DNA of 44,095 bases from an uncultured Clostridia bacterium. GTDB taxonomy: Bacteria; Bacillota; Clostridia; Christensenellales; Aristaeellaceae. How positions within the stretch are numbered: the first letter of the stretch is position 1; every line of letters starts with the position of its first letter. Below the pieces are notes generated by a model that was not told the DNA's origin, made no database searches, and saw only the letters and a program-made list of their open reading frames with translations. This document shows positions 10,496 to 39,821 of this stretch, one piece after another. The stretch covers positions 1 to 44,095 of the forward strand of contig CAMENN010000012.1 of assembly GCA_945928315.1 (NCBI GenBank), in the 5' to 3' direction. Both the position numbers and the translations under genes were made by a program.

Positions 10496-10524
10496 TTGAT
10501 GTGGGGAAGGGAGGAATGACCGGC

Positions 10525-10977
10525 ATGGCGCAGACGACGTTTTCGGGCTCGTTTGACCACTCGCTGGATGGCAAGGGCCGCGTCATCATTCCGTCCTCCT
10601 TCCGCGAGGCGCTGGGCGATGACTTTACCATCACCATCAACCCCGACAAGACCGCCGTCGCCATCTATCCCAAGGCAATGTGGGACCAGCAGCTCGAACG
10701 CCTGGCCCGGATCGATCCCATGGACAAGCTCGGCGCGCGGTATGAACGCTACCTCATGAGCGTATCCTTTTCAGGCAACAGCATGGACGCACAGGGCCGC
10801 GTGCTCATTCCCCAGAAGCTGCGCGCCAAGATCGGCCTGACCCGCGACATCGTGTTCGTCGGCGTCAACCGCTATATCGAGATCTGGGATGCCGCCGTCT
10901 ATGCGAAGATGGAGGCCGAAACCGAGGACGACTTCGACGGCCTCGTCGATTACGTCTACCAGAAGTATCCGAACTGA
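10525..10977 (+). CDS. mraZ: Transcriptional regulator MraZ
   Basis: Duplicated SpoVT/AbrB-like halves: FDHSLDGKGRVIIPSSFREAL and NSMDAQGRVLIPQKLRAKIGL; alternative start at 10516. Confidence 0.96.
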   Translation: MAQTTFSGSFDHSLDGKGRVIIPSSFREALGDDFTITINPDKTAVAIYPKAMWDQQLERLARIDPMDKLGARYERYLMSVSFSGNSMDAQGRVLIPQKLRAKIGLTRDIVFVGVNRYIEIWDAAVYAKMEAETEDDFDGLVDYVYQKYPN

Positions 10978-11018
10978 TTCCTCCGGCCGTGTGACGCCGG
11001 TTCTTGAAGAAGGGGTGG

Positions 11019-11690: not shown

Positions 11691-11696
11691 GAGGGC

Positions 11697-13820: not shown

Positions 13821-13846
13821 AGCGCAGACAACATGGAGGAATGCAT

Positions 13847-15307: not shown

Positions 15308-15329
15308 CGCCCCAAACGGAGGAAGGATC

Positions 15330-16301
15330 ATGCAAAGGATGATGATTACCCTGCTGATCGCGTTCGCGGTCGGCGTCGTGCTGGGCAAGCTGCTGCTGCC
15401 GGTGCTCCACAAGCTGAAGTTCGGGCAGAACGTCTACGAGCTGGCGCCGGAGAGCCACAAGAAGAAGCAGGGCACCCCGACGATGGGCGGCCTGGTGATC
15501 GCGGGCGCGGCGATTCTCGCTTCGCTGATCATGACCGATTACAGCGTGCCGGTCTACCAGAACATGACGCTGGCCATGCTGCTGATGGGCCTTGGCAACC
15601 TGTGCATCGGCTTTGCCGACGACATGACCAAGATCCGACGCGGCAAGAACGGGGGCCTCACGCCCAAGCAGAAGATGTTCTTCCAGACGATTCTGGCGCT
15701 GGCGTTCTCGCTCTACTGCTACGCGCATCCGCTGGTCGGCTCCAGCATCAAAATCCCGTTCCTGCGCACGGAGCTCGACCTGGGCATCCTGTACGTGCCG
15801 GTGATGATGTTCATCATCGTGGGCACGACCAACAGCGCGAACCTGCTTGACGGCCTCGACGGCCTGCTGACCAGCGTGTCGATGGTGGACTTTGCGACGC
15901 TGGCGGTCATGGCGGGCGCAGCGGCGCTTCCGGGCGTGGGCGTGTGCAGCGCGGCGATGTGCGGCGCGTGCATGGGCTTCCTGACGCGCAACGCGTACCC
16001 GGCGCAGATGTTCATGGGCGATACCGGCTCCATGTTCATTGGCGGCACGGTCGTCGCCGCGGCGATGCTGCTGCGTCAGCCGCTGGTGCTCGTGCTCATC
16101 GCGTTCTGGATGCTCATGAGCAGCCTGTCGGACATCATCCAGGTCGCCTATTTCCGCAAGACGCACGGCAAGCGCATCTTCAAGATGGCGCCGATTCACC
16201 ATCACTTCGAGCTGTGCGGCATCCATGAGACGAAAATCGTCATGATGTACATGGTCACGACGATCATTCTTTGTGTGATTACCCTGCTGGGTGTGCTGTA
16301 A
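15330..16301 (+). CDS. mraY: Phospho-N-acetylmuramoyl-pentapeptide-transferase
   Basis: KKQGTPTMGGL, FADDMTKI, TTNSANLLDGLDGL, FMGDTGSMFIGG, MAPIHHHFEL. Confidence 0.97.
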   Translation: MQRMMITLLIAFAVGVVLGKLLLPVLHKLKFGQNVYELAPESHKKKQGTPTMGGLVIAGAAILASLIMTDYSVPVYQNMTLAMLLMGLGNLCIGFADDMTKIRRGKNGGLTPKQKMFFQTILALAFSLYCYAHPLVGSSIKIPFLRTELDLGILYVPVMMFIIVGTTNSANLLDGLDGLLTSVSMVDFATLAVMAGAAALPGVGVCSAAMCGACMGFLTRNAYPAQMFMGDTGSMFIGGTVVAAAMLLRQPLVLVLIAFWMLMSSLSDIIQVAYFRKTHGKRIFKMAPIHHHFELCGIHETKIVMMYMVTTIILCVITLLGVL

Positions 16302-16316
16302 CGGAGGCATGAAATC

Positions 16317-17681
16317 ATGATGGACGTGAAGGGAAAGCGCGTGCTGGTCTGCGGCATGGCGCGCAGCGGCATCGCCGCGGCGCGGCTGCTGTGCGAGCTG
16401 GGCGCGAAGGTCACGATCAGCGATCTCAAGGAGGAGAGCGCCTTTGACGGGCAGCTCGCCTTTCTGCACGATATGGACTGCGCGTTCGCGCTGGGGCAGG
16501 CCCCCGACGCGTACATCCCGCAGCAGGACGTGATGGTCATCAGCCCGGGCATCGCGTGGGCAAAGCCGTTTGTGCAGAGCGCCATCGCGCAGGGCGTCGA
16601 GGTCATCGGTGAGCTCGAGCTGGGCGCGCGGCTCTCGCGCGGCGAGCTGGTCGCCATCACCGGCACCAACGGCAAGACGACGACGACGACGCTCGTCGGC
16701 GAGATCTTCAAGGCCTCGGGCCGCAGGACGCACGTCGTGGGCAACATCGGCTATCCCATCACCGCGACGGCGGGCATCTCCACCGACGCGGACGTGACGG
16801 TCGCCGAGGTCAGCTCCTATCAGTGCGAGGGCATCAGCACGTTCCACCCGCGCGTGGGCGCCGTGCTCAACATCACCGAGGACCACATCGTGCGCCATGG
16901 CTCCATGGAGGTCTATATCGCCATGAAGCGCCGCATCTTCGCCAACCAGACGGACAGGGACGTCGCTGTGTTCAACTACGACGACGCGACGTGCCGCGAG
17001 ATGGCGAAGGGGCTGCGCGGCAGGGTTGCCTGGTTCTCCCGCACGCAGAAGGTCGATTGCGGCGCATACGTCGAGGACGGGCGGATTGTGCTCGACTTTG
17101 ACGGCGTCCGCAAGACCGTCTGCCGCGCGGACGAGGTGTTCATCCCCGGCCCGCACAACCTGGAAAACGCGCTGGCGGCCGTCGTCATCACCGGCGCGAT
17201 GGGCGTGCCCACGGACGTGATGGCCGGTGTGCTGCGCACGTTCCGGGGCGTGGAGCACCGCATCGAGACGGTGCGCGAGCTGGGCGGTGTGACCTGGATC
17301 AACGATTCGAAGGGCACCAACGTCGATTCTACGCAGAAGGCCATTGCGACGATGACCCGGCCGACGGTGCTGATCCTGGGCGGCAGCGACAAGAAAGTCT
17401 CCTTTGATCCGCTGGCGGAGACGATCATCGCCGCCCCGCAGATCGAGCACTGTGTGCTCATCGGCGACACGGCGGAGCAGATCCGCGCGGCACTCGACCG
17501 CGTGGGCTACAGGGCCTACACGATGACGGGCTACGACTTTGACGCCTGTCTGGCGGCATGCCGCAGCCTGGCCAGGCCGGGCGGCTGCGTGCTGCTCTCC
17601 CCGGCGTGCGCCAGCTTTGACATGTTCAAGGATTACGAGGACAGGGGACGCATCTTCAAGGAAAAGGTCATGGCGCTGTAA
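16317..17681 (+). CDS. murD: UDP-N-acetylmuramoylalanine-D-glutamate ligase
   Basis: GMARSGIAAARLL, ITGTNGKTTTTTLVGEI, LNITEDHIVRHG, NDSKGTNVDSTQKAI, SPACASFDMFKDYEDRG. Confidence 0.97.
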   Translation: MMDVKGKRVLVCGMARSGIAAARLLCELGAKVTISDLKEESAFDGQLAFLHDMDCAFALGQAPDAYIPQQDVMVISPGIAWAKPFVQSAIAQGVEVIGELELGARLSRGELVAITGTNGKTTTTTLVGEIFKASGRRTHVVGNIGYPITATAGISTDADVTVAEVSSYQCEGISTFHPRVGAVLNITEDHIVRHGSMEVYIAMKRRIFANQTDRDVAVFNYDDATCREMAKGLRGRVAWFSRTQKVDCGAYVEDGRIVLDFDGVRKTVCRADEVFIPGPHNLENALAAVVITGAMGVPTDVMAGVLRTFRGVEHRIETVRELGGVTWINDSKGTNVDSTQKAIATMTRPTVLILGGSDKKVSFDPLAETIIAAPQIEHCVLIGDTAEQIRAALDRVGYRAYTMTGYDFDACLAACRSLARPGGCVLLSPACASFDMFKDYEDRGRIFKEKVMAL

Positions 17682-17741
17682 ACCGCCCCGGCCGGCTGCA
17701 AAAGAGGACATTCCGACAGGCAGCCGAAAGGGGAGGTGTGC

Positions 17742-18896
17742 TTGAAGCGCTTTGCCGCAAGGCCGCGGCGTGCGTGCGATCATACCGTGGCCGCGCTGAT
17801 GGTGCTGCTGCTCATTCTGGGGCTGATCACGCTCTTCAGCGCGACGTATTATCCCCGCACGGTGGCGGGCGATCCGCTCTCCGCCGTGCGCAAGCAGCTC
17901 ATCGGCGTGGGGCTGGGCGCGGCGGCTTGCATCGTGCTCTCGCGCGTGCCGTACAGGGCGCTGCGCTCCGGCCGGGTGATGCTGCTGCTTCTGGCGGCGA
18001 GCGCCGTGATGCTGGTGCTTGTGATCATCCCCGGCATCGGCGTGAGCATCAACGGCTCGCGGCGCTGGCTGAGCATTGCGGGACTGAGCATGCAGCCCTC
18101 CGAGTTCGCCAAGTACGCGATGGTCATCTTCATGGCGGGCGCGCTCGACCGGTGGAGCGACAGGCTGCCGCGGCTCTTCACGGGCGTGGCGCCGCTGCTC
18201 ATTGTGCCGGGCGTGATGTTTCTGCTGATTCTCGAGCAGCCGAACCTCTCCACCGGCGGCAGCATCCTGATCTGCGCGCTGGTGATGCTCTTCTGCGCGG
18301 GGCTGCGCGTGCGGCATATGGCGCTGCTGAGCGCGGCGGGCCTTTGCGTGGGCGCGTTCTACGCGTGGAGCGCGCCGTACCGGCGGGAGCGGCTGCTGTC
18401 CTTCCGCGACCCGTTTGCCAAAATGAGCGACGAGGGCTATCAGCTCTCCCAGTCGCTGATCGCGCTGGGCTCGGGCGGGCTGTTCGGCATGGGGCTGGGG
18501 CAGGGCAGGCAGAAGTTCGCCTACCTGCCGTATCCGGAGTCGGACTTCATCTTCGCCATCGTCGGCGAGGACTTCGGCCTGCTGGGCTGCACGGCGGTGA
18601 TTGCGCTGTTTGCGGCGTTCGTGTTCGCGGGGCTGCGGGTGGCGCTGCGCTGTCCGGACCGCTACGGCTGTCTGCTGGCGGCGGGCATCACCTCAATGAT
18701 CGGCCTGCAGGCGTTCATCAACATGGGCGTGGTCACGGGCATCCTGCCCACGACGGGCCTGCCGCTGCCGTTCTTCAGCGCGGGCGGCACGTCTGTGACC
18801 ATGATCATGGCGGCGGTGGGCATCCTGCTGAGCATATCGCGCGCGTCCGGGCGCAGACTGCCGGACGGACATGACAACAAGGGAGAGCGGGCATGA
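17742..18896 (+). CDS. ftsW: SEDS peptidoglycan polymerase FtsW
   Basis: Multi-TM; INGSRRWLSIAGLSMQPSEFAKYA, DEGYQLSQSLIALGSGGLFGMGLGQGRQKFAYLPYPESDFIFAIVGEDFG, PTTGLPLPFFSAGGTS; TTG start after GGGGAGG (GTG 17736 alternative). Confidence 0.95.
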   Translation: MKRFAARPRRACDHTVAALMVLLLILGLITLFSATYYPRTVAGDPLSAVRKQLIGVGLGAAACIVLSRVPYRALRSGRVMLLLLAASAVMLVLVIIPGIGVSINGSRRWLSIAGLSMQPSEFAKYAMVIFMAGALDRWSDRLPRLFTGVAPLLIVPGVMFLLILEQPNLSTGGSILICALVMLFCAGLRVRHMALLSAAGLCVGAFYAWSAPYRRERLLSFRDPFAKMSDEGYQLSQSLIALGSGGLFGMGLGQGRQKFAYLPYPESDFIFAIVGEDFGLLGCTAVIALFAAFVFAGLRVALRCPDRYGCLLAAGITSMIGLQAFINMGVVTGILPTTGLPLPFFSAGGTSVTMIMAAVGILLSISRASGRRLPDGHDNKGERA

Positions 18897-19723
18897 GACA
18901 CAGAAAACGCAGCAAACACGCAAAACAGACGATGGCCATGGCCATTGCGCTGATTGGCGCTCTGGCCCTTTTGATCGTTTTGGCGTGCAGCCGGGTGTTC
19001 ATCATCCGCGACATCATGGTCGTGGGCAACCGCAGCCTCCTCAGCGAGGAGGTGATCACCCAGAGCGGGGTGAGCATCGGGGACAACCTGCTCTCCATCA
19101 GCACCCAGCAGCTTCGCGAAAACCTGGAGCGCAACCGCTACATCGAGTACAGGAGCCACAGCTTTGACTACAAGGGCCGGCTCACGATCACCATCAATGA
19201 GCGGCTGGGCCGCGCGGTTGTCAACGTGCTGGGCCTGTATTACGTGCTCGACGCGTCGGGCATGGTGCTCGAGTGCGCGGGCAGCGCGTATCCTGCGGGC
19301 GTGGCCGGGCCGTATGTCGTCGGCCTGTCCATCCCGAGCAACGCGCAGGTGATCGTCGGCGAAACGCTGCCGGTGCGCGACCGCAGCCAGCTGGACGCCA
19401 TGGAGCAGGTGATCGCCGGGCTTGACAGCGTGGGCATGCTCGCGACGGCGTCCGAATTGAGCGTCAAGAATCTGGATAACCTGTATTACACCACGTCTGC
19501 CGGAGTGAAGGTGGAGCTGGGCAACCTTTCCTCCCTGCACACCAAGCTGCTCATCGCCCGGGAGGTGCTCGCCCTGCGTGAGGCCGACGAGGGCGTGACC
19601 GGCGCGAAGATCGACGTCTCCTCCGGGACGAGCGCGCATTACATTCCGGCGGTGCTGCCGACGGTGACGCCGGTGCCGACCGCCACCCCGACGGTCAATC
19701 CCTCGCGCTCACCGGGTGCATAA
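18893..19723 (+). CDS. ftsQ: Cell division protein FtsQ/DivIB (POTRA)
   Basis: N-terminal TM, POTRA start IRDIMVVGNRSLLSEEVITQSGVSIGDNLLSI; Pro/Thr-rich C-terminal tail; 4-bp overlap with ftsW. Confidence 0.9.
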   Translation: MRHRKRSKHAKQTMAMAIALIGALALLIVLACSRVFIIRDIMVVGNRSLLSEEVITQSGVSIGDNLLSISTQQLRENLERNRYIEYRSHSFDYKGRLTITINERLGRAVVNVLGLYYVLDASGMVLECAGSAYPAGVAGPYVVGLSIPSNAQVIVGETLPVRDRSQLDAMEQVIAGLDSVGMLATASELSVKNLDNLYYTTSAGVKVELGNLSSLHTKLLIAREVLALREADEGVTGAKIDVSSGTSAHYIPAVLPTVTPVPTATPTVNPSRSPGA

Positions 19724-19789
19724 CGGAGCATACGGGCGCCGGCCGGAGCGAAAAATCGGCGGTTTTCGGACAAAATTTGCTCAAGTGGC

Positions 19790-19818
19790 TTGAAAGAAAG
19801 AGCATAATGGGTTACAAT
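19790..19818 (+). promoter_or_regulatory. SigA-like promoter upstream of ftsA
   Basis: TTGAAA (19790-19795), 17-nt spacer, TACAAT (19813-19818). Confidence 0.7.
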
Positions 19819-19904
19819 AAACTCGCATAATAATAGCAAATAAGATGAATTCTTCCGCCTTTTGGGCGAATTTGCATGCGGGGCAGACAGGAGCATGAGA
19901 TCGT

Positions 19905-21083
19905 ATGATGAAAAAAGCGACGGCGGTTCTGGACTTTGGCACGTCCAAGGTGCTGGTATTGCTTGCAGAGGAGAGCGCGTATCAGAAGGTAACCATCACC
20001 TCTGCGGGCATGGCGCAGTATGATGGATTCATGAACGGGGAATGGAATACCCCGGGCGAGGTGACGGACGCCATCGCCAGCGCGGTGGAGGCCGCCGAAA
20101 AGAAGGTCGGCGCGCACATCCGCGAGGTGTATGTGGGCGTGCCGGGCGAGTTTGTTCGCGTGTATGTGATCGAATCGAGCGTCACGCTGCAGGGCGCGGA
20201 CCCCAAGGTGACCAGCGCCGACGTGGAAAAGCTGCAGCGGCAGGCGACCGAGATGCTCGACCGCCCGACTGGCGTGATCATCCACCGCTCCCCGGCGTGG
20301 TTCAAGGTGGACGGCGGCCAGAAGACGCTCGAGCCGGTCGATCAGAAGGGCTCCACGCTCGAGGGCATGATCGGCTTCGTGCTCGCCGACCAGTTCTTCA
20401 TCAACGACGTCACCGAGCGCCTGCGCGATCTGAACATCGAGGTGCGCGGCTTCTTCTCCACCTCCGTGGGCGAGGCCATGCAGATGATCCCGTACGAGGA
20501 GCGCGACCATACGGCCATGCTGGTGGATGTGGGCTATCTGTCCACTGAGGTCATGGCGGTGGAGGGCGACGCGCTCATCTGGCAGAAGGTGCTGCCCATC
20601 GGCGGCGCACACATTACGCTCGACCTGACCTACGGCCTGGAAAAGCCGTTTGACATGTGCGAAAAGATCAAGCGCAATTACGCCTTCAACGCACCGAAGA
20701 ACACGCAGATCGAGGTGCAGGGCGAGAACGGGCAGATGGAGAGCTTCTCCGGCGAGCAGATCAGCGAGATCGTCGATGCGCGCGTGGACGAGATGCTCGA
20801 GATGATCGACGACGCGATCAAGAAGAGCGGCATCCGCCTGGGCAACTGGTCAAGCATTTACCTCACCGGCGGCGGTCTGATGCCGATGTCCGGCGCACGG
20901 GTTTACGCGGCGGGCAAGCTCTCGCACAACGTGCGCGAGGCGGCGACCAAGACCGTCAAGCTCAAGCCGGCGCAGATCTACGCCAGCGGCAGCGGCCTGC
21001 TGGAGCTGGTGTACAACACCATCGAGATGGAAGAGCAGGACGAGGGCCTGTTTGAGCGCATCAAGCGCATTTTCCGCAGATAA
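19905..21083 (+). CDS. ftsA: Cell division protein FtsA
   Basis: Actin-like fold motifs ([45 protein letters not shown]), C-terminal amphipathic [11 protein letters not shown], adjacent to ftsZ. Confidence 0.92.
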
Positions 21084-21181
21084 CACACTGGCCGGCACGC
21101 GCCGGCGCAACACCGACAAAGAATGTAAAGTCCAACGCCCGTGCGGGGCCTGGCTTTCACGAGCAAAAGGGGGATTTTCCT

Positions 21182-22504
21182 GTGTTTGAAATTGAAATGG
21201 ACGAGCGTCCGGCAGCTTCCATCAAGGTCGTCGGCTGCGGCGGCGGCGGCGGAAACGCGCTCAACCGCATGGTGGACTGCGGCGTGACCGGCGTGGACTT
21301 CATCGCGGTGAACACCGACGTGCAGGCGCTGCGCACCAGCCGCGCGGCGACCATGATCCAGATCGGCGAAAAGCTGACCAAGGGCCTGGGCGCGGGCGCG
21401 ACCCCGGAAATCGGCAAGAAGGCCGCCGAGGAGAGCCGCGAGGAGATCGCCAGCGCGCTCAAGGGCGCAGACCTGGTGTTCGTGACCGCGGGCATGGGCG
21501 GCGGCACCGGCACGGGCGCTGCGCCCGTCGTCGCGGAGATCGCGCGCGACATGGGAATCCTGACCATCGCGGTGGTGACCAAGCCGTTTGCCTTTGAGGG
21601 CAAGACCCGCATGCGCAAGGCCGAGGCCGGCATCGACGAGCTCAAGCAGCGCGTGGACACGCTGGTGGTCATCCCCAACGAGCGTCTGCTGCAGGTCTGC
21701 CCGAAGGGCACGTCCTTCAAGGGCGCGTTCAACTTCGCCGACGACGTGCTGCGCCAGGGCATTCAGGGCATTTCCGACCTGATCTCCCAGACCGGCATCA
21801 TCAACCTCGACTTCGCGGATGTGAAGGCGGTCATGGAGTCCGGCGGCATGGCGCACCTGGGTATCGGCATCGGCAAGGGCGAAAAGGCCATGGCCGACGC
21901 CGCGCAGAACGCGATTTCCTCCCCGATGCTCGAGACGAGCATCGACGGCGCGCGCGCTGTGCTCATCAACGTGACCTGCAACTCCAACTGCTCCATCGTG
22001 GACATCAACGACGCGGTCGAGATGATCACCGCCGCCGCGGACAGCGAGGCGAACATCATCTTCGGCGCGAGCATCGACGACACGCTTGAGGACGAGGTCC
22101 ACATCACCGTGATCGCGACCGGCTTTGAGAAAGTACCCTTCCCGCCGCGCGCGAGCACCGCGGACCGTCCGGCCTCGCTGCCGTCCCAGGCGGCGTATGT
22201 GCCGCACAGCGCGTACAGCGCTTCGACCTATCAGCCGCAGCAGCCGCCGGTGAGCAGCTATACGCGCTATGATTCCGGCTATGCGCCGGTGGGATCGCCG
22301 TATACGCCCGTGCAGGGCGGCGCGCCGGCAGCGGAGCCGGAGGTGCCGCTGTTCGGCAGCGAGCAGCAGCCGGCCGGCCAGCGCGTCTCGCCGTTCGCCG
22401 CGATGCCGGAGACGAACGCGCCTGCCGCCCAGCAGGAGCGTCAGGAGGAGCGCGGCCCGCGTTCCTTCATGGACGGCATCCCCGCCTACATGCGCCGGAA
22501 GTAA
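21182..22504 (+). CDS. ftsZ: Cell division GTPase FtsZ
   Basis: [49 protein letters not shown]-terminal conserved peptide [13 protein letters not shown] start. Confidence 0.98.
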
Positions 22505-22580: not shown

Positions 22581-24146
22581 ATGGAAAAGAGTCGATGCCT
22601 GCGCGCAGCCCGCGTACTGAGCGCTTTGCTGCTCATCGCGGCGCTGGGCGCCGTGCTGGCGCTGCTGCTCTTTGCGTTTCCGCAGGTGCAGTTTGACCGC
22701 AAGCGCGAGGCGTTCGGCAGCCTGATCCCGCTGGCGGCGCTGGGTCTGGTCGCGGCGCTGCTGGGCGCGTGGGGCGGGGGAAGGGCGGCGGATTGCGAGC
22801 TGCGCGGACGGCGGCTTCGTGCGCCGGTGCTGGCGGCGGGCTGTGCGGCGCTCTTCTGCGTGCAGGCGTTTCTCTGGTATCACGCGTATTTCATCGCGGG
22901 CTGGGACCTGGTGTCCATCCTGAAGAGCGCGTACGCCATCGCGGGCGGCGACGAGCTGATCGACAACTACTACCTCTCCATGTATCCGAACAACGCGCTG
23001 CTCACGCTGGTTTTCGGGCTGCTGATGCGCGCGTTCCGGGCGGTGACGGGCGGCGCGCGGCTCGACCGCTGCGTGTTCATGCTCATCCTGGTCCAGTGCG
23101 CGCTCAATGCCGCGGCCTGCTATCTGACGGCGCGCGTCGCGCAGAAGGGATTTTCCTCTGACCGCGCGGGACTCGCGGCGTTCATCGGCTATGCGGCGTT
23201 CACCGGCATTTCGCCGTGGATGATCGTGCCGTATTCGGACAGCATGGCGCTCATCGTGCCGGTGGGCATCCTGCGCCTGTACCAGCTGGGCGCGGAGGAG
23301 AAGCGGCGCTGGGTCTGGCCGTGCATCGGGCTGCTGACGTTCGCAGGCTGGAGCCTCAAGCCGCAGGCGGTCATCGTGACCATCGCGGTGCTGCTGCAGG
23401 AAGGCGCGCGCAGCGTGTCGGAGCGGCGGCTGCGCGGTTATCTGGCGAAGGCCGTCTGCGTGATCGCGGTGGCGGCGGTGGGCATCGGCCCGGCGACGGA
23501 TGCGATCCTCGAGGCGTCGCCGATCGAGCTGCGCGAGGGCCGGAGCGTCGGCGCGCTCCACTATGTGATGATGGGGCTCAACCCGGAATCGAACGGCGTC
23601 TACCGCGACGAGGACATGATCCTCACCGCGTCCGCGCCCGATCCGGCCTCCCGGCGCGCGGCGCAGTGGGAGAAGATCGGCGAGCGCGTATCCGTCATGG
23701 ACGCGGGCGACTGGGCGGGCCATCTGGCGAAGAAGGCGCTCTCCAACTTCGCCGATGCGCCGGTCATCTGGTCGGCGGGCGGCGTCACCTGCTGGCAGGC
23801 GATCGAGGATAAGGACAGTGTGGTTTCCCCCTTCCTCAAGGGCCTGCTGGGTGTGGAGAACGGGACGATGTTTTCGCCGCTGTTTACCTACTTTGAGTGC
23901 GTCTGGCTCGCACTTTTGCTGCTGGCGCTGGCGGGCTGTCTGGCGGCGTGCAGGCTGATTGGCGCCGGGCGGGAGGCGGACTGGCTCTTTGACGCGATGC
24001 TGGCGGTGTTCGGCTTCATGCTCTTTCAGATGATCTTTGAGGCGGGCAACCGTTACTTCATGATCTACACGCCGTTTGTGGTGCTGCTGGCGGTGGGCGG
24101 TCTGCGGGCGATGGGCCGCGCAGCGGGGAGGAGGAGACGCGCATGA
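22581..24146 (+). CDS. Polytopic membrane protein, GT-C / glycosyltransferase family 39-like (copy 1)
   Basis: About 10 or more hydrophobic segments; GWDLVSILKSAYAIAGGDELIDNYYLSMYPNNALLTLVFGLLMRAFR. Confidence 0.65.
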   Translation: MEKSRCLRAARVLSALLLIAALGAVLALLLFAFPQVQFDRKREAFGSLIPLAALGLVAALLGAWGGGRAADCELRGRRLRAPVLAAGCAALFCVQAFLWYHAYFIAGWDLVSILKSAYAIAGGDELIDNYYLSMYPNNALLTLVFGLLMRAFRAVTGGARLDRCVFMLILVQCALNAAACYLTARVAQKGFSSDRAGLAAFIGYAAFTGISPWMIVPYSDSMALIVPVGILRLYQLGAEEKRRWVWPCIGLLTFAGWSLKPQAVIVTIAVLLQEGARSVSERRLRGYLAKAVCVIAVAAVGIGPATDAILEASPIELREGRSVGALHYVMMGLNPESNGVYRDEDMILTASAPDPASRRAAQWEKIGERVSVMDAGDWAGHLAKKALSNFADAPVIWSAGGVTCWQAIEDKDSVVSPFLKGLLGVENGTMFSPLFTYFECVWLALLLLALAGCLAACRLIGAGREADWLFDAMLAVFGFMLFQMIFEAGNRYFMIYTPFVVLLAVGGLRAMGRAAGRRRRA

Positions 24147-25669
24147 GGGCATGCCGGTGGGCCGTTGCGGCAGGCTTCTCGCTGATGATGGCCGCGATTC
24201 TCGCCGCGGTGCTGACGATGGAGACGGCGGTCCGACCGCTTCTGTTGGGGCAGGGACTGCTGCTGGCGATCGGACTGGCGGTGCTGCTGGGGCTCTGCGC
24301 ACTCACGCTGCGGCAGGACAAGCCGCTCACGCGCCGAGCGAAGCTGGGTGAGGCTGCCTTCTGGCTGGCGCTGTTTGTGCTGCAGGCGGTGCTGTGCTTT
24401 TTCGCCTACTTCATGACGGGTTGGGACGTGAAGACGCTGCTGGAATCGGCCTATGCGCTGGCGGGCGGCGACGCGATCGTCGATCACTACTACTACAGCC
24501 TGTATCCGAACAACGCCTTTCTGACGCTCGTCTTTTCGGGCGTGATGCGCGCATTCCGCGGGGTATCGCCGGGGGCGGGATTGGCGCGCTGCGCGTACAT
24601 CCTGATCGTTGGCCAATGCGCGCTGAACACGCTGGCGGGCGTGCTGACCCGGCGCACGGCGCTTCAGCTGACCGGCTCGCGACGGCTTTCCTGGCTTGCG
24701 GCGGTGGTGTATGCGGGCTTTGTCGGGCTGAGTCCGTGGCTGATGATCCCGTATTCCGACAGCATGGCGCTCTTATTTCCGGTGGCCGTGCTGTATCTCT
24801 ACGCCGGGCGGCGGGAAAAGGGGGGCGGAACATGGCTGGTCATCGGTCTGCTGACGGGCGTGGGCTACCTGATCAAGCCGCAGGCGGCGATCGTCACGAT
24901 CGCGCTGGGGATCGTCGAGGCGATGCGCGCGGTCAGCGAGCGGCGTCCGGCGCGCTTTGTGCTGCGCGCGGTCTGCGTGCTGGGTATTACGGCGCTGCTG
25001 GCGGGGCCGGGCTTTGATGCGCTGCTCGCCCGCTCCGGCATCCATGTGCGCGCGGAGCGGACGCTCGGGCCGCTGCACTTCGCGATGATGGGCCTGAGCG
25101 AGCGCACGGGCGGCACCTACGACGCGGAGGACCTCGCGCGCTCGGTGAGCGTGGAGGACCCGCAGGCGCGTGCGCAGATGCAGCGGGAGGAAATCGCCGC
25201 ACGGCTTGAGGCGATGGGCCTGCGGGGACTCGCGCGGCATCTGCAGCGCAAGACGCGCATCAATTACGGCGACGGCCTGTTTGCCTGGGGCGGCGAGGGC
25301 AATTTCTTCGCGGAGCGGATCGGCGACAAGGACGGTCTGCTCTCGCCTGCGCTCAAGCGCGCGATCGGCTGTGAGGGCGACAGCGCGTCCGGCCGGGCGC
25401 TGGCGAGCTGGATGCAGGCGATCTGGCTGGCGTTGCTCGCAGGCAGCGCGGGCATGGTGCTTGCCTATGCCGCCGCGCGGGGCGATGATCATCGCCGCGA
25501 CCTCCTGCTGACGCTCATGCTCGCCCTCATCGGCCTCACGCTCTTTGAGACGATCTTCGAGGCCCGGGCGCGGTACCTGTTCGCCTATGCGCCGCTGTAT
25601 GTGCTGGCGGGGATCTGCGGCATCCGGGCTGTCGTCATACGGATGTGCGGAGTCTGCAAAAAAGCATGA
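24143..25669 (+). CDS. Polytopic membrane protein, GT-C / glycosyltransferase family 39-like (copy 2, paralogue)
   Basis: Multi-TM; GWDVKTLLESAYALAGGDAIVDHYYYSLYPNNAFLTLVFSGVMRAFR parallels copy 1; 4-bp overlap with copy 1. Confidence 0.65.
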   Translation: MRACRWAVAAGFSLMMAAILAAVLTMETAVRPLLLGQGLLLAIGLAVLLGLCALTLRQDKPLTRRAKLGEAAFWLALFVLQAVLCFFAYFMTGWDVKTLLESAYALAGGDAIVDHYYYSLYPNNAFLTLVFSGVMRAFRGVSPGAGLARCAYILIVGQCALNTLAGVLTRRTALQLTGSRRLSWLAAVVYAGFVGLSPWLMIPYSDSMALLFPVAVLYLYAGRREKGGGTWLVIGLLTGVGYLIKPQAAIVTIALGIVEAMRAVSERRPARFVLRAVCVLGITALLAGPGFDALLARSGIHVRAERTLGPLHFAMMGLSERTGGTYDAEDLARSVSVEDPQARAQMQREEIAARLEAMGLRGLARHLQRKTRINYGDGLFAWGGEGNFFAERIGDKDGLLSPALKRAIGCEGDSASGRALASWMQAIWLALLAGSAGMVLAYAAARGDDHRRDLLLTLMLALIGLTLFETIFEARARYLFAYAPLYVLAGICGIRAVVIRMCGVCKKA

Positions 25670-31741: not shown

Positions 31742-32155
31742 TCGGATAACCCCTTTTCCTGCGGCGCGAAGCCGCATTTGCTGTCCCTCTATTGTACCAT
31801 GACCGGGAGAAAAAGGAAAGCGCCGCGGTGCAGGGGACGCCGGACGGAATGGCGCGCCTGGCGGGAAGGGAACGCCGCATCCGCGGATACCAAAATGTAA
31901 CATCCTTCACATTTGACGGCAGAGGCGTGTCGAAAACCGCTCCGAAAACGGAAAAACAGGGCGGCTTGGCGGACAGCACGTCGAATCCTGACGGACATGT
32001 CGGCAAAAATGTGAAGATAGTTCATAAATTCATTTCAAAATTCCGAAAAACAGGTGGAATTATATGTCTTATATGGTATAATACGATCAAAAAAGACATA
32101 AATTGACGGTGAACGCGGATTGCAGCGGACGGCATGAGGAAAGGATGTGACAACC

Positions 32156-32581
32156 ATGGGCTGGATGCAGATGGCCGGTCAGAAGGACTTTGGCGGTCTT
32201 CGCCTGCTGATTGCGGAGGACAACACGCTGTACGGGGAGATGATGACGGAGCTGCTGACCATGTATCACGCGAAAGTCCGCCTGGCGAAAAACGGCGTGG
32301 AGGCGCTGCGCCTGCTCCGGGAGAGCACCAATGCGTTCGATGCGGTGCTGATGGACGTGCTGATGCCGGGCATGAACGGCTATGAGACGACCCGCGCCAT
32401 CCGGAGGTTGGACAAGGCGCACAATGGTCAGGTGCCCGTGCTGGCCATGACCGCGGGCACGGATGAGAGCATCCGCCGGCGCGCCCGGGAGGCCGGCATG
32501 GATGCCTTTCTGGGCAAGCCCGTGGAGGTGGCGGCGCTGGATGAGGCGCTCGGCAGGGTGCTGCGGGAAAAGGCGGTCTGA
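32156..32581 (+). CDS. Stand-alone receiver-domain (CheY-like) protein
   Basis: LRLLIAEDNTLYGEMM..DAVLMDVLMPGMNGYE..VLAMTAGTDE..DAFLGKPVE; no output domain. Confidence 0.9.
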   Translation: MGWMQMAGQKDFGGLRLLIAEDNTLYGEMMTELLTMYHAKVRLAKNGVEALRLLRESTNAFDAVLMDVLMPGMNGYETTRAIRRLDKAHNGQVPVLAMTAGTDESIRRRAREAGMDAFLGKPVEVAALDEALGRVLREKAV

Positions 32582-32846: not shown

Positions 32847-34829
32847 ATGAACAAGCAGTACAGGCGCCTGCTCGCGCTGGCTGCGTGTCTGGCGCTGCTC
32901 TGTCTGACCGGCTGCGACAGGCGCACGGAGCAGAGCAGCCGCCTGCCGGTCGGCGCGGCGGAAAACGAGATCCTGACCCTGACGCCCGTGGCGCAGGACA
33001 AGGAGCTGGTCACTATCCACTACGAATACGGTCTGGACATCACCTCTGAGATCGAAAAGGCTGTCGAGGAGCGGTTCCCGAACGTCGATGTGGTCATGGT
33101 TCACGACGGTGCGAGCGATTCCATCGCGCTGATGGAGTGCAACCTCAGACACGGCACCGAATGCGACCTGATCTTCAGCCGCAGCATCTATACCCGCAGC
33201 GATCTGGCGGAGACGTACCTGCTGGATCTGTCCGGCGAGGCGTTCATCAACAACTTCTATCTCACCTCGCTGAGCACCTGCGTCAGCCCGGATGGCGGGC
33301 TGTATTACCTGCCCGGCCCGGCGAACATGTACGGCGTGATCTATGACAAGACCGTGCTGGAGGAAAACGGCTGGGCGGTGCCGGACAGCTACAGCGGGTT
33401 CGTGGAGCTGATCCGGACCATCGACAATGCCGGCCTGACCGTCATGGAGAACATCGACGGCGAGGTCAGCGAGGTGCCGGTGCGCGCCATCCGCCCCTCG
33501 ATCAAGTTCTCGGACGCCTTCCGCAGCCTGTTCTATCCCTTTGCCTACCGGGAGCTGTTCGCCGGGCAGGAGAACCTCGAGTGGCTGACCGCCTATCAGC
33601 GCGGGGAGGGCAGCATGGTGGGGCACATGGAGCCGTTCATCGACATCCTGCGGCGGCTCTTCGAGGACGGCGTCGTGCGCCCGGAGGACTGGGATTACCT
33701 GCCCCGCTACCGCCTGCCGATGCTGTGCGACACGCATTCCACCGTCATGATCCTCGGCCCGCTGAACACCTTCGCCAACGAGCAGCTGGTGAACAGCGAT
33801 CATGAGTTCGCCATTCTGCCCATGTTTACCGGCGATGATCCGGACAGTGACTACCTGTATTCCATTCCCACCTACTTCATGGGCATCAGCAGGGCGTCCG
33901 CGGAGGTCAGCCCGGAGCGCAGGCAGCTCCTTCTGGACATCATGGGCTTCATCTGCGCGCCGGATGCGCAGGAAAAGCTCTTCGGCGAGGCCAATACGCT
34001 GGTCTCCAACATCAAGGGCGTCAATCCCGGGGAGAACAGCTTCAACGCTGCCATCAAGGAGACCATCGAGGAGGGCCGCATCATCACCGATTTCTACACC
34101 TTGGCGGAGACGGCGCTCAACAGCGGCGCGCGGGACGTGGTTTCGGGCGCCATCACCGGGGAGGAATACCTGCTCGCCGGCGATGCGGCCCGGGATCAGT
34201 GGCTGAGCGGCACGCTGTTCGCCGAGCCGCAGGTGCTGGGCACCTGCGAGGAGACGCTCACCCGCTTTGAAACGGCCCTGCTGGTCGGCCAGATCTACCG
34301 CGACGTGACCGGGGCGGACATCGCGCTGGTGTATGTGAACACCGGGGATCAGGGCGTCAACTGCCGCCTGTTCGAGGGCACGGTGGATACCACCGACCTG
34401 AACAACATCGCGCCCGACCGCACCAGCGCGGCAGGCGAGGGCATCGCCTCGGGCTCGCTCACGGGCCGCCAGATTCTGGAATGCCTGAACGGCGCGAGCG
34501 CGCAGGTGGGCAATTCCAGCCAGTGGTATTATGTGGCCTCCGGGCTGAACGTCGAGTTCGCCCCGTGGATGCCCACCGGGGAGCGCCTGGTCAGCTGCAC
34601 GCTGCCGGACGGCAGTCCGCTCGAGCCGGACGCCCTGTACCGGGTTGCGTACATGAGCGACAAGATCTTCACCGTCGAGGGAGACAGCATCATCGCGCTG
34701 GCGCCCGGGGATGAGCAGATCGTGGAAGGCGGATGGTCGGAGCTCTTCCCGAAATGGATCGGGGAGCACGGCGGCGTGATCCGGCGACCGGAGCAGACCA
34801 CCGTGCTGAACTGGATGACGAAGGAATAA
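32847..34829 (+). CDS. Lipoprotein: family 1-like solute-binding domain fused to a 5'-nucleotidase C-terminal-like domain
   Basis: Lipobox CLTGC; SBP-like region (EIEKAVEERFPNVDVVMV..YYLPGPANMYGVIYDKTVLEENGWAVPDSYSGFVELI); C-terminal region GADIALVYVNTG..LTGRQILECLNGASAQVGNSSQWYYVASGLNVEFAPWMPTGERLVSCTLPDGSPLEPDALYRVAYMSDKIF. Confidence 0.8.
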   Translation: MNKQYRRLLALAACLALLCLTGCDRRTEQSSRLPVGAAENEILTLTPVAQDKELVTIHYEYGLDITSEIEKAVEERFPNVDVVMVHDGASDSIALMECNLRHGTECDLIFSRSIYTRSDLAETYLLDLSGEAFINNFYLTSLSTCVSPDGGLYYLPGPANMYGVIYDKTVLEENGWAVPDSYSGFVELIRTIDNAGLTVMENIDGEVSEVPVRAIRPSIKFSDAFRSLFYPFAYRELFAGQENLEWLTAYQRGEGSMVGHMEPFIDILRRLFEDGVVRPEDWDYLPRYRLPMLCDTHSTVMILGPLNTFANEQLVNSDHEFAILPMFTGDDPDSDYLYSIPTYFMGISRASAEVSPERRQLLLDIMGFICAPDAQEKLFGEANTLVSNIKGVNPGENSFNAAIKETIEEGRIITDFYTLAETALNSGARDVVSGAITGEEYLLAGDAARDQWLSGTLFAEPQVLGTCEETLTRFETALLVGQIYRDVTGADIALVYVNTGDQGVNCRLFEGTVDTTDLNNIAPDRTSAAGEGIASGSLTGRQILECLNGASAQVGNSSQWYYVASGLNVEFAPWMPTGERLVSCTLPDGSPLEPDALYRVAYMSDKIFTVEGDSIIALAPGDEQIVEGGWSELFPKWIGEHGGVIRRPEQTTVLNWMTKE

Positions 34830-34854: not shown

Positions 34855-37797
34855 ATGGAAAAGCAATTCCGACACAACCGGTTGATCATGGTCTGCGTGC
34901 TGTTGATCTTCCTGGTGCTCTCCTGGGCCCTCGTGAACATCCTGGTCGGCCAGGTCGGCAGGAGCGCGGACGAGGAGGTCCTGACCCACATCCGGGAGAA
35001 CACGGAGCAGCTGTATTACAGCTTCAGCAACCGGATTGAGGACACCTGGACGATCATGCGGATTGAGGCCCAGAGCCTTGGCCGGCTGGCCGATGCCTCC
35101 GAGCAGGAGGTGCTCGAGGTGATCGCCCTGCTGCAGGAGCAATCCGTCGCCAACGACGTTTACCTGATCAACAAGGAGGGGCGGTATCTGGACGGCAGCG
35201 GCCGGGCCGGGCAGTGGCAGCTGGACGCGAGCATGCTGCCGCTGCTGCGCGGCGAGGAGACGCTCTGCCGCCTGCGCCAGCGGGATACCGGCGCGGACTG
35301 CCTCGACTTTGCGGTCCTGCTGGATACGCCGCTGACCGAGCACGGCTACTGCATCCTGCTGCTGGAATACACGCCGGACACCTTCCTCAAGGTGCTGGAG
35401 CTGAAGACCTATGGCGGGCAGGGCGTCGCCTATGTGGTGGACAGCGCGGGGTGGACCCTGTTCAGGTCGGAGGGCACGCTGCCCACCGACCATGTGCAGA
35501 ATTACTTTTTCTACCAGTTTCTGGAGGGTATGGCGTTCGAGGGGAATGAGGAGATCACGGACGCGGATGCGCTGCGCGCCGCGGTCAATGCGGGAGAGTC
35601 GGACGCCGTCTATGTCTCCGGGGAGGAATACGCCTATGCGCTCAGCTTCCGGCCCCTGAGCATCATGGACTGGCACCTGATCCTGATGGTGGAGCGCTCC
35701 GTCATCTCGGGCGGGCGCATGGAGTACATGCGGCAGGTGCAGTGGATCGCGCTGTGCGCCAACCTGTTCATCCTGGCGGTCTGTCTGGGCTTCTACTGGC
35801 TCAATTCCCTGTGGATCAACCGGCGCGCGGCGGTGCAGCTCTCCAGCCGCGAACGGATCATCCATGTGCTGTCCGTCAACAGTCAGGGCGTCTATCTGCT
35901 AATGGAGTCCACCACGGGCCGGTGCACCTTTGCCAGCGAGAGTCTGCAGAGCATGCTGGGCGTCGAGCCGCAGTCCCTGATGGGCAGGCCCGTGAGCATC
36001 CTTTTGGAGATGTTCGGCAATCCGGCGCTGCAGAAGATGCTTCAGGCGTGGGACAGGAAGGTCATGCTCGATTCGGAGCGCTTTCTCTTTCACGCGGAGC
36101 CGGATGATGAGGGCAGATACCTGCGCGTCCGCGTGTTCCCACCCCTCAAGGGCGAGGTGGTCATGGCCGTGCTGGATGAGACGGCGGATGCCCGGCGCGA
36201 GAAGGCGCTCGAGGACGCTGTCAACCTGGCCAGAAGCGCCAATCAGGCGAAGAGCATGTTCCTCTCCAACATGAGCCACGACATCCGGACTCCGATGAAC
36301 GCGATTATCGGCTTCACGACGCTGGCCATCGCCAATCAGGACAAGCCGGACAAGGTGAAGGACTATCTGTCTAAGATCCTTGCCTCGGGCAATCATCTGC
36401 TATCGCTGATCAACGATGTGCTCGACATGAGCCGTATCGAGAGCGGCAGGATTCATCTGGACGAGCAGGAGGCCAACCTCTCCGACATCTTCCACGACCT
36501 CAAGACGATCATCAGCGGACAGATTCACGCCAGGCAGCTCGAGCTGTACATGGACATCATGGACGTCACGGACGAGGAAGTGTTCTGCGACAAGACGCGC
36601 CTCAACCAGGTGCTGCTCAACCTGCTCTCCAACGCCATCAAGTTCACAGCGCCGGGAGGCACCATCACCGTGCGCGTCGCGCAACTGCCGGGCGCGCCGG
36701 AGGGGAAGGGGCTGTACGAGATCCGCGTGAAGGACACCGGCATCGGCATGAGCTCGGAGTTTGCCCGGCGGATCTTCGAGCCGTTTGAGCGCGAGCGCAC
36801 CTCGACCGTGAGCCGGATTCAGGGCACGGGTCTGGGCATGGCCATCTCCAAGAACATCATCGACATGATGGGCGGGGAGATTGCGGTCACGACCGAGCAG
36901 GACAAGGGGACGGAATTCGTGGTGCGCCTGACGCTCAAGCTGCAGTCCGAGCGCCGTCGTGTGGAGGTCATCCGCGAGCTGGCCGGCCTCAAGGGGCTTG
37001 TGGTGGACGACGACTTCAACACCTGCGACAGCGTCACCAGGATGCTCCTGCAGGTGGGCATGCGCTCGGAGTGGACCCTGTCCGGCAAGGAGGCCGTGCT
37101 CCGTGCGAGGCAGTCGCTGGAGATCGGCGATCCGTTCCAGGCCTACATCATCGACTGGCGCCTGCCGGACATGAACGGCATCGAGGTCACCCGCCAGATC
37201 CGCCGCCTGGGCGACGAGACGCCGATCATCATCCTCACGGCGTACGACTGGGAGGAGATCGAGGTGGAGGCGCGTGCCGCGGGCGTGACGGCCTTCTGCG
37301 AGAAGCCGATGTTCATGAGCGACCTTCGGGATACCCTGCTGCGCGCGCTGGGACGGGAGACGGAGAAGACGGACGCGCTGCCCGGCGCGGACGGAGATGA
37401 AGACCTCGCGGGCAAGCGCATTCTGCTGGTGGAGGACAACGACCTGAACCGCGAAATCGGCTGCGAGATCCTGACGGAGTACGGATTTGCCGTCGATGAA
37501 GCGGAGAATGGCGAGGAGGCCGTGCGCAAGGTGTCCCGCTCCGCGCCCGGGCAGTACGATCTGGTGCTGATGGACATTCAGATGCCCATCATGGACGGCT
37601 GCGAGGCCGCACGCAGGATTCGCGCGCTGGAGAATCCGGCGCTGGCGTCTCTGCCGATCATCGCCATGACCGCCAACGCCTTTGAGGATGACCGCAGGGC
37701 GGCGATTGACAGCGGCATGAACGGCTTCCTCTCCAAGCCCATCGACATCGCCGAGGTGATCGAGACGATCCGGGCGGTGTTCAGGCAGAAGCGCTGA
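34855..37797 (+). CDS. Hybrid sensor histidine kinase with two C-terminal receiver domains
   Basis: Two TM segments around an extracytoplasmic region, PAS-like segment, SHDIRTPMNAIIGFT H-box, GTGLGMAIS, receivers GLVVDDDFN..YIIDWRLPDMNGIE and ILLVEDNDLNREIG..LVLMDIQMPIMDGCEA. Confidence 0.94.
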   Translation: MEKQFRHNRLIMVCVLLIFLVLSWALVNILVGQVGRSADEEVLTHIRENTEQLYYSFSNRIEDTWTIMRIEAQSLGRLADASEQEVLEVIALLQEQSVANDVYLINKEGRYLDGSGRAGQWQLDASMLPLLRGEETLCRLRQRDTGADCLDFAVLLDTPLTEHGYCILLLEYTPDTFLKVLELKTYGGQGVAYVVDSAGWTLFRSEGTLPTDHVQNYFFYQFLEGMAFEGNEEITDADALRAAVNAGESDAVYVSGEEYAYALSFRPLSIMDWHLILMVERSVISGGRMEYMRQVQWIALCANLFILAVCLGFYWLNSLWINRRAAVQLSSRERIIHVLSVNSQGVYLLMESTTGRCTFASESLQSMLGVEPQSLMGRPVSILLEMFGNPALQKMLQAWDRKVMLDSERFLFHAEPDDEGRYLRVRVFPPLKGEVVMAVLDETADARREKALEDAVNLARSANQAKSMFLSNMSHDIRTPMNAIIGFTTLAIANQDKPDKVKDYLSKILASGNHLLSLINDVLDMSRIESGRIHLDEQEANLSDIFHDLKTIISGQIHARQLELYMDIMDVTDEEVFCDKTRLNQVLLNLLSNAIKFTAPGGTITVRVAQLPGAPEGKGLYEIRVKDTGIGMSSEFARRIFEPFERERTSTVSRIQGTGLGMAISKNIIDMMGGEIAVTTEQDKGTEFVVRLTLKLQSERRRVEVIRELAGLKGLVVDDDFNTCDSVTRMLLQVGMRSEWTLSGKEAVLRARQSLEIGDPFQAYIIDWRLPDMNGIEVTRQIRRLGDETPIIILTAYDWEEIEVEARAAGVTAFCEKPMFMSDLRDTLLRALGRETEKTDALPGADGDEDLAGKRILLVEDNDLNREIGCEILTEYGFAVDEAENGEEAVRKVSRSAPGQYDLVLMDIQMPIMDGCEAARRIRALENPALASLPIIAMTANAFEDDRRAAIDSGMNGFLSKPIDIAEVIETIRAVFRQKR

Positions 37798-39446
37798 TTG
37801 CCTGACTTTCCCGCGCGACAGGACGCATGCCTTCGGACAAAGCAAAAGCCTCGGGCGGGGCGGTCCGGGGGCATGCGTTTTTGCTGTTCGGGCAGAGCGG
37901 AGGGTAGAGAGGATTTCCGATGGGACAGGAAAAGCCCCGGACGAACGCATCGTCCGGGGCTTGCTGGCTCCCCAGCCAATCTGATATCCGAACCGCTATT
38001 ATTCTTTTTCTCGACGAGGTGCAAGTCGTTCAGCGTAATGGTTTCCGATCCTTCATGGAAATTGTAGGTGATGACCAGCCTGTCGTCGTAGAGAAAGATG
38101 GCATTGACGAAGGTGTCGATCAGCATTTTGCGTTGGGACTGTTGCTCGACATTCATGCTGCGAAAGCGATGGAGGAAGAAGCGAAGCTGTTCCTCACTGA
38201 TGCGGGGCTTGGAGAGCTTCTCGCAGGCAATTTTGCTTTCGAGGCTGTCCCGCGCAGCTTCCAGCTCATCCAGGCGTTCCTTGGTCGAGCGGGTCAAAAG
38301 CCCCTGTTCAATGGCGCTTAGCAGATTGCGGATAGCATTGTTGGTGTCGCGGAGCTGCTTTTCGTACAGCGGAAGCAGCGAGTTTTCTGCGTTTTGCAGC
38401 TCCATCAGAGCAGCCACAATAGCGTCAACTGTTGCGTCGTTCATCAGCATCTTCATTGTTGCATTGACGACGAGATCCTCGATCCATTCCTTCCTGACGG
38501 CCTTCTTCTTGCAGTCTGCCCTTCGTTTCTTGACGGAAACGCACTTGTAGTAGTGATGGACCGCTCCGCTGCGGCTGGTACCGCACTCCCCGCATAGATA
38601 GGCACCGCAATACCCGCAGAACAGCTTGGTTGTCAGCAGGTAATCATCCTCTGCCTTATGACGGGCAGGGGCTTTTTTGTTTTTGGCCATCATATCCTGA
38701 ACGCGGTCAAACAGGTTCTGTGGCACGATGGCCGGGATCGCATTGGGAACGATGACGTCTTTATAGCTGTATTCACCGATATAGCGTCGGTTGTTCAGCA
38801 TTCTCTGTATGCTGCCAGGCTTGATTTCTCCGCCAAGGGTATTTCGGATGCCGTTTTCCTTGAAAAAAGCGGCAATCTCTTTCATAGTTGAACCTTCTGC
38901 ATAGCGCTTGAATGCCTCAAGCACGAAAGGAGCGGTTACTGGATCAGGCTGAAAGTGCTGCTCCGCATCAATGATATAGCCAACAGGGCGTGTGCCGCCG
39001 TTGCATTTTCCTTTGAGAGCGTTTTCAGTCATGCCCCGGTGAACCTTCTCGGCAAGATCGGCAGAGTAATACTCAGCATAGCCCTCCAAAACGGATTCAA
39101 GGATGATTCCCTCTGCACCCTCGGAAATCTGCTCTGTTGCAGAGACAACCTTGACACCGTTTTTCTTGAGCTGCAGCTTATATCGGGTGCTGTCATACCG
39201 ATCACGGGAAAATCTGTCCAGCTTCCAAACGATAACCATGTCAAAGAGACGCTTATCGCTGTCCTTGATCATGGCTTGGAACTCAGGACGATTGTCTGTT
39301 CTGGCGGAATAGGCCCGATCAATGTAATGCTTCAGAATTGTGATGTCGTTCTTCTCAGCAAAGGCAGTGCATTCACGAATCTGACCTTCGATGGATTCCT
39401 CACGCTGATTATCGGAGGAATAGCGGGCATAGATGACGGCTTTCAT
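37578..39446 (-). CDS. Large serine recombinase (C-terminal approximately 150 aa likely non-native read-through)
   Basis: YARYSSDNQREESIEGQIREC, KLDRFSRDRYDS catalytic domain, recombinase domain, zinc ribbon (CGYCGAYLCGECG), coiled-coil; ORF continues into antisense of the hybrid kinase 3' end. Confidence 0.88.
   Translation of the reverse strand: MKAVIYARYSSDNQREESIEGQIRECTAFAEKNDITILKHYIDRAYSARTDNRPEFQAMIKDSDKRLFDMVIVWKLDRFSRDRYDSTRYKLQLKKNGVKVVSATEQISEGAEGIILESVLEGYAEYYSADLAEKVHRGMTENALKGKCNGGTRPVGYIIDAEQHFQPDPVTAPFVLEAFKRYAEGSTMKEIAAFFKENGIRNTLGGEIKPGSIQRMLNNRRYIGEYSYKDVIVPNAIPAIVPQNLFDRVQDMMAKNKKAPARHKAEDDYLLTTKLFCGYCGAYLCGECGTSRSGAVHHYYKCVSVKKRRADCKKKAVRKEWIEDLVVNATMKMLMNDATVDAIVAALMELQNAENSLLPLYEKQLRDTNNAIRNLLSAIEQGLLTRSTKERLDELEAARDSLESKIACEKLSKPRISEEQLRFFLHRFRSMNVEQQSQRKMLIDTFVNAIFLYDDRLVITYNFHEGSETITLNDLHLVEKKNNSGSDIRLAGEPASPGRCVRPGLFLSHRKSSLPSALPEQQKRMPPDRPARGFCFVRRHASCRAGKSGNQRFCLNTARIVSITSAMSMGLERKPFMPLSIAALRSSSKALAVMAMIGRDASAGFSSARILRAASQPSMMGI
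37824..37882 (+). terminator. Candidate terminator after hybrid kinase
   Basis: CGCATGCCTTCGGA .. TCCGGGGGCATGCG stem with about 26-nt loop followed by TTTTTG. Confidence 0.5.
37932..37962. terminator. Perfect 13-bp hairpin, possible bidirectional terminator
   Basis: AAGCCCCGGACGA-ACGCA-TCGTCCGGGGCTT. Confidence 0.6.
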
Positions 39447-39796
39447 GATTGCTCCTCCATGATGCGATATAGGCTGTCCTTTAGCTTCGCATTAGCAGGC
39501 GTCCCGGGCTCAAAGCATACATCGAGAAATCTGCGGATCTCTTCCTGCTGTGGTTTGAGCTTCGGATGGAAACCGTAGGTTTGCCCCTGCGGATTATCCG
39601 TTCGGCCAAAAATATAATCAAGGGATACATCGAAGTAGTCTGCATAGCGTCTGAACAGGGCAACAGACGGCGTGCTTTGACCATTTTCGTACCGATTGAG
39701 GCTGGATTGAGAGGTGCCCAATTCAGCAGCAAGCTTTTCCTGAGAAATGCCGACGGATTCTCTCAGGGAACGAAGACGTTTGGCACAGGATTCCAT
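39443..39796 (-). CDS. XRE-family transcriptional regulator
   Basis: RLRSLRESVGISQEKLAAELGTSQSSLNRYENGQSTPSVALFRRYADYFDVSLDYIFGRTDNP; 4-bp overlap with recombinase; RBS AGGAGG. Confidence 0.93.
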   Translation of the reverse strand: MESCAKRLRSLRESVGISQEKLAAELGTSQSSLNRYENGQSTPSVALFRRYADYFDVSLDYIFGRTDNPQGQTYGFHPKLKPQQEEIRRFLDVCFEPGTPANAKLKDSLYRIMEEQS

Positions 39797-39821
39797 AGGA
39801 GTCACCTCCTCTAATCTATGG

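Follow-up and report, generated by a model that had tools for sequence, protein, structure and literature searches.

A lipoprotein joining a solute-binding fold to a 5'-nucleotidase C-terminal domain, probable input subunit of a dCache hybrid kinase in gut Clostridia

What could be the function of a lipoprotein that carries two modules of the ligand-recognition type, when its gene adjoins that of a hybrid histidine kinase rather than those of a transporter? The question is raised by a locus of the window, i.e. the whole stretch of 44,095 nucleotides of an uncultured Clostridia bacterium analysed here, whose relevant features are:

32147..32581, + strand: stand-alone receiver protein, 144 aa, possible phosphorelay partner (Pfam Response_reg, E 2.1e-23)
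32847..34829, + strand: lipoprotein, 660 aa, solute-binding protein (SBP) fold and 5'-nucleotidase C-terminal domain (Pfam, profile, AlphaFold/Foldseek)
32847..32915, + strand: lipoprotein signal peptide, lipobox LTGC, acceptor Cys23 (sequence)
32949..34166, + strand: family-1 sugar-type solute-binding domain, residues ~35-440 (profile 3quf, E 1.4e-31; Foldseek 3quf/RafE)
34209..34811, + strand: 5'-nucleotidase C-terminal domain, residues ~455-655, nucleoside-site motifs lost (Pfam, profile, fold, motifs)
34855..37797, + strand: hybrid histidine kinase, 980 aa, with TM1, extracytoplasmic dCache-like domain, TM2, PAS, HisKA, HATPase and two receiver domains (Pfam)
34945..35733, + strand: extracytoplasmic domain of the kinase, residues ~31-293, proposed docking site of the lipoprotein (covariation with the lipoprotein)
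36175..37794, + strand: conserved kinase core, residues 441-980 (identity to related kinases)

Two folds in one lipoprotein

A purine-rich ribosome-binding stretch (gagggggaa) lies directly 5' of the ATG of the lipoprotein gene, and the lipobox cysteine, Cys23, is invariant or nearly so in the alignment of the family. Taken as a single sequence the lipoprotein gives a SBP_bac_8 match (residues 107-191) that stays under the Pfam cut-off; the profile of 75 family members, for its part, matches the solved family-1 SBP 3quf over positions 33-416 (E 1.4e-31), and Foldseek on the AlphaFold model of the whole lipoprotein (pLDDT 74, pTM 0.80) ranks sugar-binding proteins first, 3quf (E 1.5e-17) and also RafE. 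At the other end, Pfam recognises 5_nucleotid_C at residues 477-603 (E 1.1e-10, 42.3 bits for a cut-off of 23.6), the C-terminal positions of the 75-member profile match 3ivd, 2z1a and UshA, and a profile of this domain built from 17 members matches 2z1a (E 3.6e-17). Since the full-length Foldseek search put solute-binding proteins first, residues 455-660 were folded separately: with this model (pLDDT 82.5, pTM 0.83) all of the 50 matches listed belong to the 5'-nucleotidase family, 2z1a having an E of 4.4e-12. The domain fusion is real, two separate folds standing in one lipoprotein, and the C-terminal part has its own 5'-nucleotidase-type fold.

The preliminary description of this DNA, which had read the protein as a lipoprotein with a family-1 SBP domain and a 5'-nucleotidase C-terminal domain, was right on both halves. 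It had also proposed a binding-only protein with no ABC permease nearby: Pfam finds no metallophosphoesterase domain in the lipoprotein, nor in the 75-member tally, and by the search used no ABC permease-like ORF was found within the 44-kb window. The lipoprotein thus shares the fold of its C-terminal domain with UshA, 2z1a and CD73, but is devoid of metallophosphoesterase and has lost the nucleoside-site motifs; likewise its residues ~35-440 fold like the ABC sugar-binding proteins 3quf, RafE and MsmE, but it has no adjoining permeases, is fused to a second domain and is paired with a kinase.

A family that neighbours hybrid kinases

The lipoprotein belongs to a widespread, apparently undescribed family. 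At least 78 non-redundant full-length members, in at least 67 loci, were found in uncultured and named gut Clostridia, among them Faecalibacterium prausnitzii ATCC 27768 and isolates of Pseudoflavonifractor phocaeensis and Oscillibacter valericigenes. They were collected from the host's family, order and phylum, and from a GTDB scan with a close subset. The order- and phylum-wide searches scored the best three candidates per genome, so that the spread of the family is a lower bound; the query of the GTDB scan was the closer four-member alignment, the 12-member one being too divergent for a scan of the collection, and the named loci are therefore biased to one clade. In 75 members, Pfam detects 5_nucleotid_C in 69, SBP_bac_1 in 35 and SBP_bac_8 in 23. 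A described fusion of SBP and 5'-nucleotidase C-terminal domains was not found in the open-access literature, which is a faint hint of novelty. The same genome holds, on another contig, two tandem lipoproteins of this type followed by a dCache hybrid kinase (L033:2591-9403), and many related loci likewise have two lipoproteins in this order.

Only the lipoprotein served as query in the search for loci, 60 of which had enough flanking DNA to be evaluated, seven ending too soon. In 57 of the 60 a hybrid kinase is encoded on the same strand at no more than 400 bp, and in 55 at no more than 60 bp, the median gap being 23 bp; that of the window starts 26 bp 3' of the lipoprotein gene. The same fusion is thus found beside hybrid kinases in other genomes, where the preliminary description had suggested looking for it. 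Three evaluable loci (L115, L145 and L151) have no adjacent hybrid kinase, and L134 was set aside, its neighbour being a receiver-EAL-GGDEF protein and its contig ending 157 bp past the gene. The side of the kinase varies, downstream as in the window or upstream. Among 52 neighbouring sequences scanned with Pfam as kinases, one of which is the non-kinase of L134, HisKA is present in 51, HATPase in 51, a receiver in 50 and dCache in 29. In the window kinase, the dCache match (E 0.015) is under the Pfam cut-off, and hydrophobic segments occupy about residues 8-36 and 294-322.

Ordinary solute-binding relatives show the reverse arrangement: among 20 of them, taken from sister genomes, two permeases lie within ~1.2 kb of 17 and a hybrid kinase adjoins only one, whereas cognate permease genes are rare beside the family members and none was found in the window. 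Besides, SBP-only lipoproteins do exist beside hybrid kinases, in L173 and in L198 (the latter followed by an ORF that by eye resembles a sugar kinase), so that the 5'-nucleotidase domain is not generally required for the SBP-kinase arrangement. This suggests that the domain was added to a pre-existing SBP-kinase pair.

Joint divergence of the lipoprotein and the kinase ectodomain

Across 48 loci, the pairwise identities of the lipoproteins correlate with those of the kinase ectodomains at r 0.963 and with those of the cores at 0.631, values that are not corrected for phylogeny; the best of 1000 permutations reached 0.39 for the lipoprotein-ectodomain correlation. When the core is held constant the ectodomain keeps a partial r of 0.94 with the lipoprotein, and the core given the ectodomain falls to 0.14; inside the largest clade these values are 0.78 and 0.22 respectively. 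The lipoprotein changes in step with the kinase ectodomain, and not with the catalytic core. The cytoplasmic PAS provides a further control: the ectodomain keeps 0.72 with PAS held constant (0.74 inside the largest clade), while PAS keeps 0.11 with the ectodomain held constant (0.05 inside the largest clade), the 12 loci outside this clade allowing too few comparisons for this control. As to which domain of the lipoprotein contacts the kinase, covariation cannot firmly tell, because the identities of the SBP and 5'-nucleotidase domains themselves correlate at 0.97.

The window locus displays a peculiar distribution of identity. Its kinase core is 81% identical to that of L106, 79% to L105 and 76% to L140; by comparison with L106 the ectodomain drops to 20% and the lipoprotein to 21%, and L105 and L140 also give about 20%. 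Along the kinase there is a sharp break at residue ~437, past the PAS region: identity is ~20-35% before it and ~75% or more beyond. The nearest lipoproteins are found elsewhere: G021 (45% over the N-terminal 416 residues), L152 (39%) and L097 (29%). In G021 and L152 the window-type lipoprotein is the first of two, before a kinase with another type of ectodomain, so that the choice of partner in these tandem loci is unclear. These identities give the window locus the appearance of a natural chimera, for which an exchange of the input cassette would be the simplest reading; the donor was not found among the compared loci. We disfavour the alternative that the N-terminal half of the window kinase plainly evolved fast: in 220 non-window pairs with cores at least 68% identical the ectodomains average 61%, against 18-20% for the nine window pairs, and the eight lowest pairs listed among the 220 all involve L092. 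The mismatch between core and ectodomain in L092 itself was not used, its kinase ORF overlapping the lipoprotein ORF and its start being unconfirmed.

Could the joint divergence be explained by genetic linkage only, lipoprotein and N-terminal half of the kinase being exchanged as a DNA block without any contact? The break of identity after the PAS region agrees with this, since the exchanged block would be contiguous. Yet within this same block the correlation of PAS vanishes on controlling for the ectodomain, whereas that of the ectodomain persists; moreover the adjacency is near universal with the kinase on either side. We consider linkage alone improbable. A different objection is that the protein may be an orphan transport lipoprotein serving an ABC permease encoded elsewhere, the kinase being there by coincidence or merely regulating the lipoprotein. 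Its fold is indeed that of ABC sugar-binding proteins, and the family gene of L035 stands near an ABC operon; but this operon has its own 445-aa solute-binding protein, permeases rarely adjoin the family when kinases do so in 57 of 60 loci, ordinary relatives behave in the opposite way, no permease-like ORF was found in the window, and the identity of the lipoprotein follows that of the kinase ectodomain. Such a transport function seems to us very unlikely. A sensor role, rather than that of a transporter component, had been proposed in the preliminary description, and kinase adjacency, the permease control and covariation with the ectodomain all argue for it.

Ligand, output and relation to known sensors

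In CD73, Phe417 and Phe500 sandwich the base of the substrate, Asn390 and Asp506 bind its ribose, and Arg354 and Arg395 its phosphate (PMC8677862). We matched the nucleoside-site residues by motif, aligning the family with two genuine 5'-nucleotidases from related genomes. The CD73 residues are placed in what we take to be their motifs, NGGxIR and [FY]..GGDGY. Both are absent from the window lipoprotein in the motif alignment, and the positions like Arg354, Phe417, Phe500 and Asp506 are replaced or deleted in it and in most of the family, although one aromatic (Tyr) persists at the Phe417-like position of the window lipoprotein. NGGxIR is gone from 70 of 75 members; five (L096, L089, L095, L037 and L038) keep it, together with a [FY]..G..GY block.

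Where a theme is recognisable, the neighbourhoods of the family point to carbohydrate use: alpha-L-fucosidase, GH106 rhamnosidase and an ABC sugar operon with sugar permeases in L035, a GH38 mannosidase in L038, an apiosidase-like enzyme in L037 and KduI/IolB in L106. The window locus itself has no sugar-related gene next to it, so that a sugar ligand is there deduced from the fold and from the relatives.

The preliminary description had favoured a nucleotide, nucleoside or sugar-phosphate as ligand, and one may imagine that an extracellular nucleotide or nucleoside is sensed through the C-terminal domain. The 5'-nucleotidase fold of this domain, and the five members that keep NGGxIR and the [FY]..G..GY block, speak for such a sensor. 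At the opposite, the positions that would make the contacts seen in CD73 are lost in the window lipoprotein and most of the family, and even in the lineage that kept the motifs, two loci (L037 and L038) lie close to carbohydrate genes. We regard nucleotide sensing as a highly improbable function. For the window lipoprotein in particular, a nucleotide ligand is unlikely because the nucleoside-site motifs are lost, and the earlier suggestion finds no support; for the few members that keep the motifs such a ligand is less improbable. In the window lipoprotein the C-terminal domain has probably been reused as a structural or docking module.

The output appears to vary. In the window the stand-alone receiver protein, 265 bp upstream of the lipoprotein and of uncertain membership in the system, has no output domain, and other kinds of response regulator occupy its place in related loci; the host genome contains two HPt ORFs. 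In L125:4570-5448, L148:5942-6898, L116:6007-6885 and L123:5930-6829, regulators of reversed order (HTH_26), the Cro/C1-type HTH being N-terminal and the receiver C-terminal, stand directly upstream of the lipoprotein-kinase pair. Receiver-EAL-GGDEF proteins occur in L093:3612-6221, L134:4270-6852 and L105:2856-4520 (with a shortened GGDEF match in L105), which suggests a cyclic-di-GMP output in some loci.

On the 3' side of the window kinase (37578-39805), two ORFs converge on the end of the kinase gene, that of a serine recombinase (Resolvase, Recombinase, zinc ribbon), which runs antisense into it, and a small one resembling HTH repressors; a mobile element was possibly inserted directly after the kinase. 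Elsewhere in the window, 10444-22504 carries a division and cell-wall cluster identified by eye (mraZ-like, penicillin-binding, murE, mraY, murD, ftsW-like, ftsZ-like), in which the interval between the mraZ-like and ftsL-like ORFs showed no rsmH-like ORF, and a tandem pair of related multi-membrane proteins, each about 510-520 aa long, lies directly 3' of the ftsZ-like gene (22581-25669).

Four features have been established by computation: the lipobox, the presence of two folds, the pairing with kinases across the family, and the fact that lipoprotein and ectodomain diverge together. From them we think it quite probable that the lipoprotein serves a three-component sensor as its extracytoplasmic input subunit, with the dCache hybrid kinase as partner. 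The lipid anchor would hold it on the outer face of the membrane, where its solute-binding domain would capture a small ligand, for which a sugar or an oligosaccharide is the likeliest candidate. The lipoprotein would then dock on the dCache-like ectodomain of the kinase encoded 26 bp downstream, the 5'-nucleotidase C-terminal domain serving as structural or docking part, and docking would raise or lower the kinase activity. Phosphoryl groups may pass from the kinase's own receivers, presumably through a stand-alone HPt, to a response regulator.

Such arrangements have precedents. CuaD of Ruminiclostridium cellulolyticum is a lipoprotein family-1 SBP beside a kinase and acts in sensing, not in transport; it binds the kinase ectodomain in two-hybrid assay as well as cellobiose, and improves cellobiose sensing (PMC10384115). 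Like CuaDSR, the window has a gene for a lipoprotein family-1 SBP beside that of a membrane histidine kinase. However, CuaD is a single-domain mature protein of 410 aa without 5'-nucleotidase domain, and CuaS a classical HAMP kinase with an AraC-type regulator, whereas the window kinase is a dCache hybrid with two receivers. In XylFII-LytS of Clostridium beijerinckii the SBP docks on the sensor kinase, with two binding proteins and two sensors per complex (PMC10384115). The window family resembles it by the pairing of an SBP with a sensor kinase, docking being here a proposal. XylFII-LytS differs by its kinase family, its single-domain binding protein and its specificity for xylose. By analogy, the window family is best read as a variant of SBP/kinase three-component sensors such as CuaDSR, from which it would depart in having an added domain, a hybrid kinase of the dCache type and output proteins that vary between loci. 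Gene proximity is certainly not always a functional link, since the Pseudomonas aeruginosa neighbours PA0602/AgtB-AgtS and PA4985-AruS showed no interaction in the binding tests done (PMC11113362).

On a wider scale we propose, as a tentative view, that the hybrid-kinase sensors of gut Clostridia may include a large family not yet described, in which the lipoprotein gene and the extracytoplasmic/PAS half of the kinase would be exchanged as one unit between near-constant cores, and in which the 5'-nucleotidase C-terminal domain would have turned from nucleotide binding to a docking or structural part. To our knowledge, no signal has been assigned to most sensor kinases of gut Clostridia. The present family offers a computable rule that pairs a lipoprotein with its neighbouring kinase in at least 67 loci, some of them in isolates workable at the bench. 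Its C-terminal domain is a simple mark to separate sensing from transport SBPs, proteins that annotation would otherwise tend to assign to ABC transport or to nucleotidases. Finally the chimera-like locus of the window suggests that input cassettes may be movable between kinase cores.
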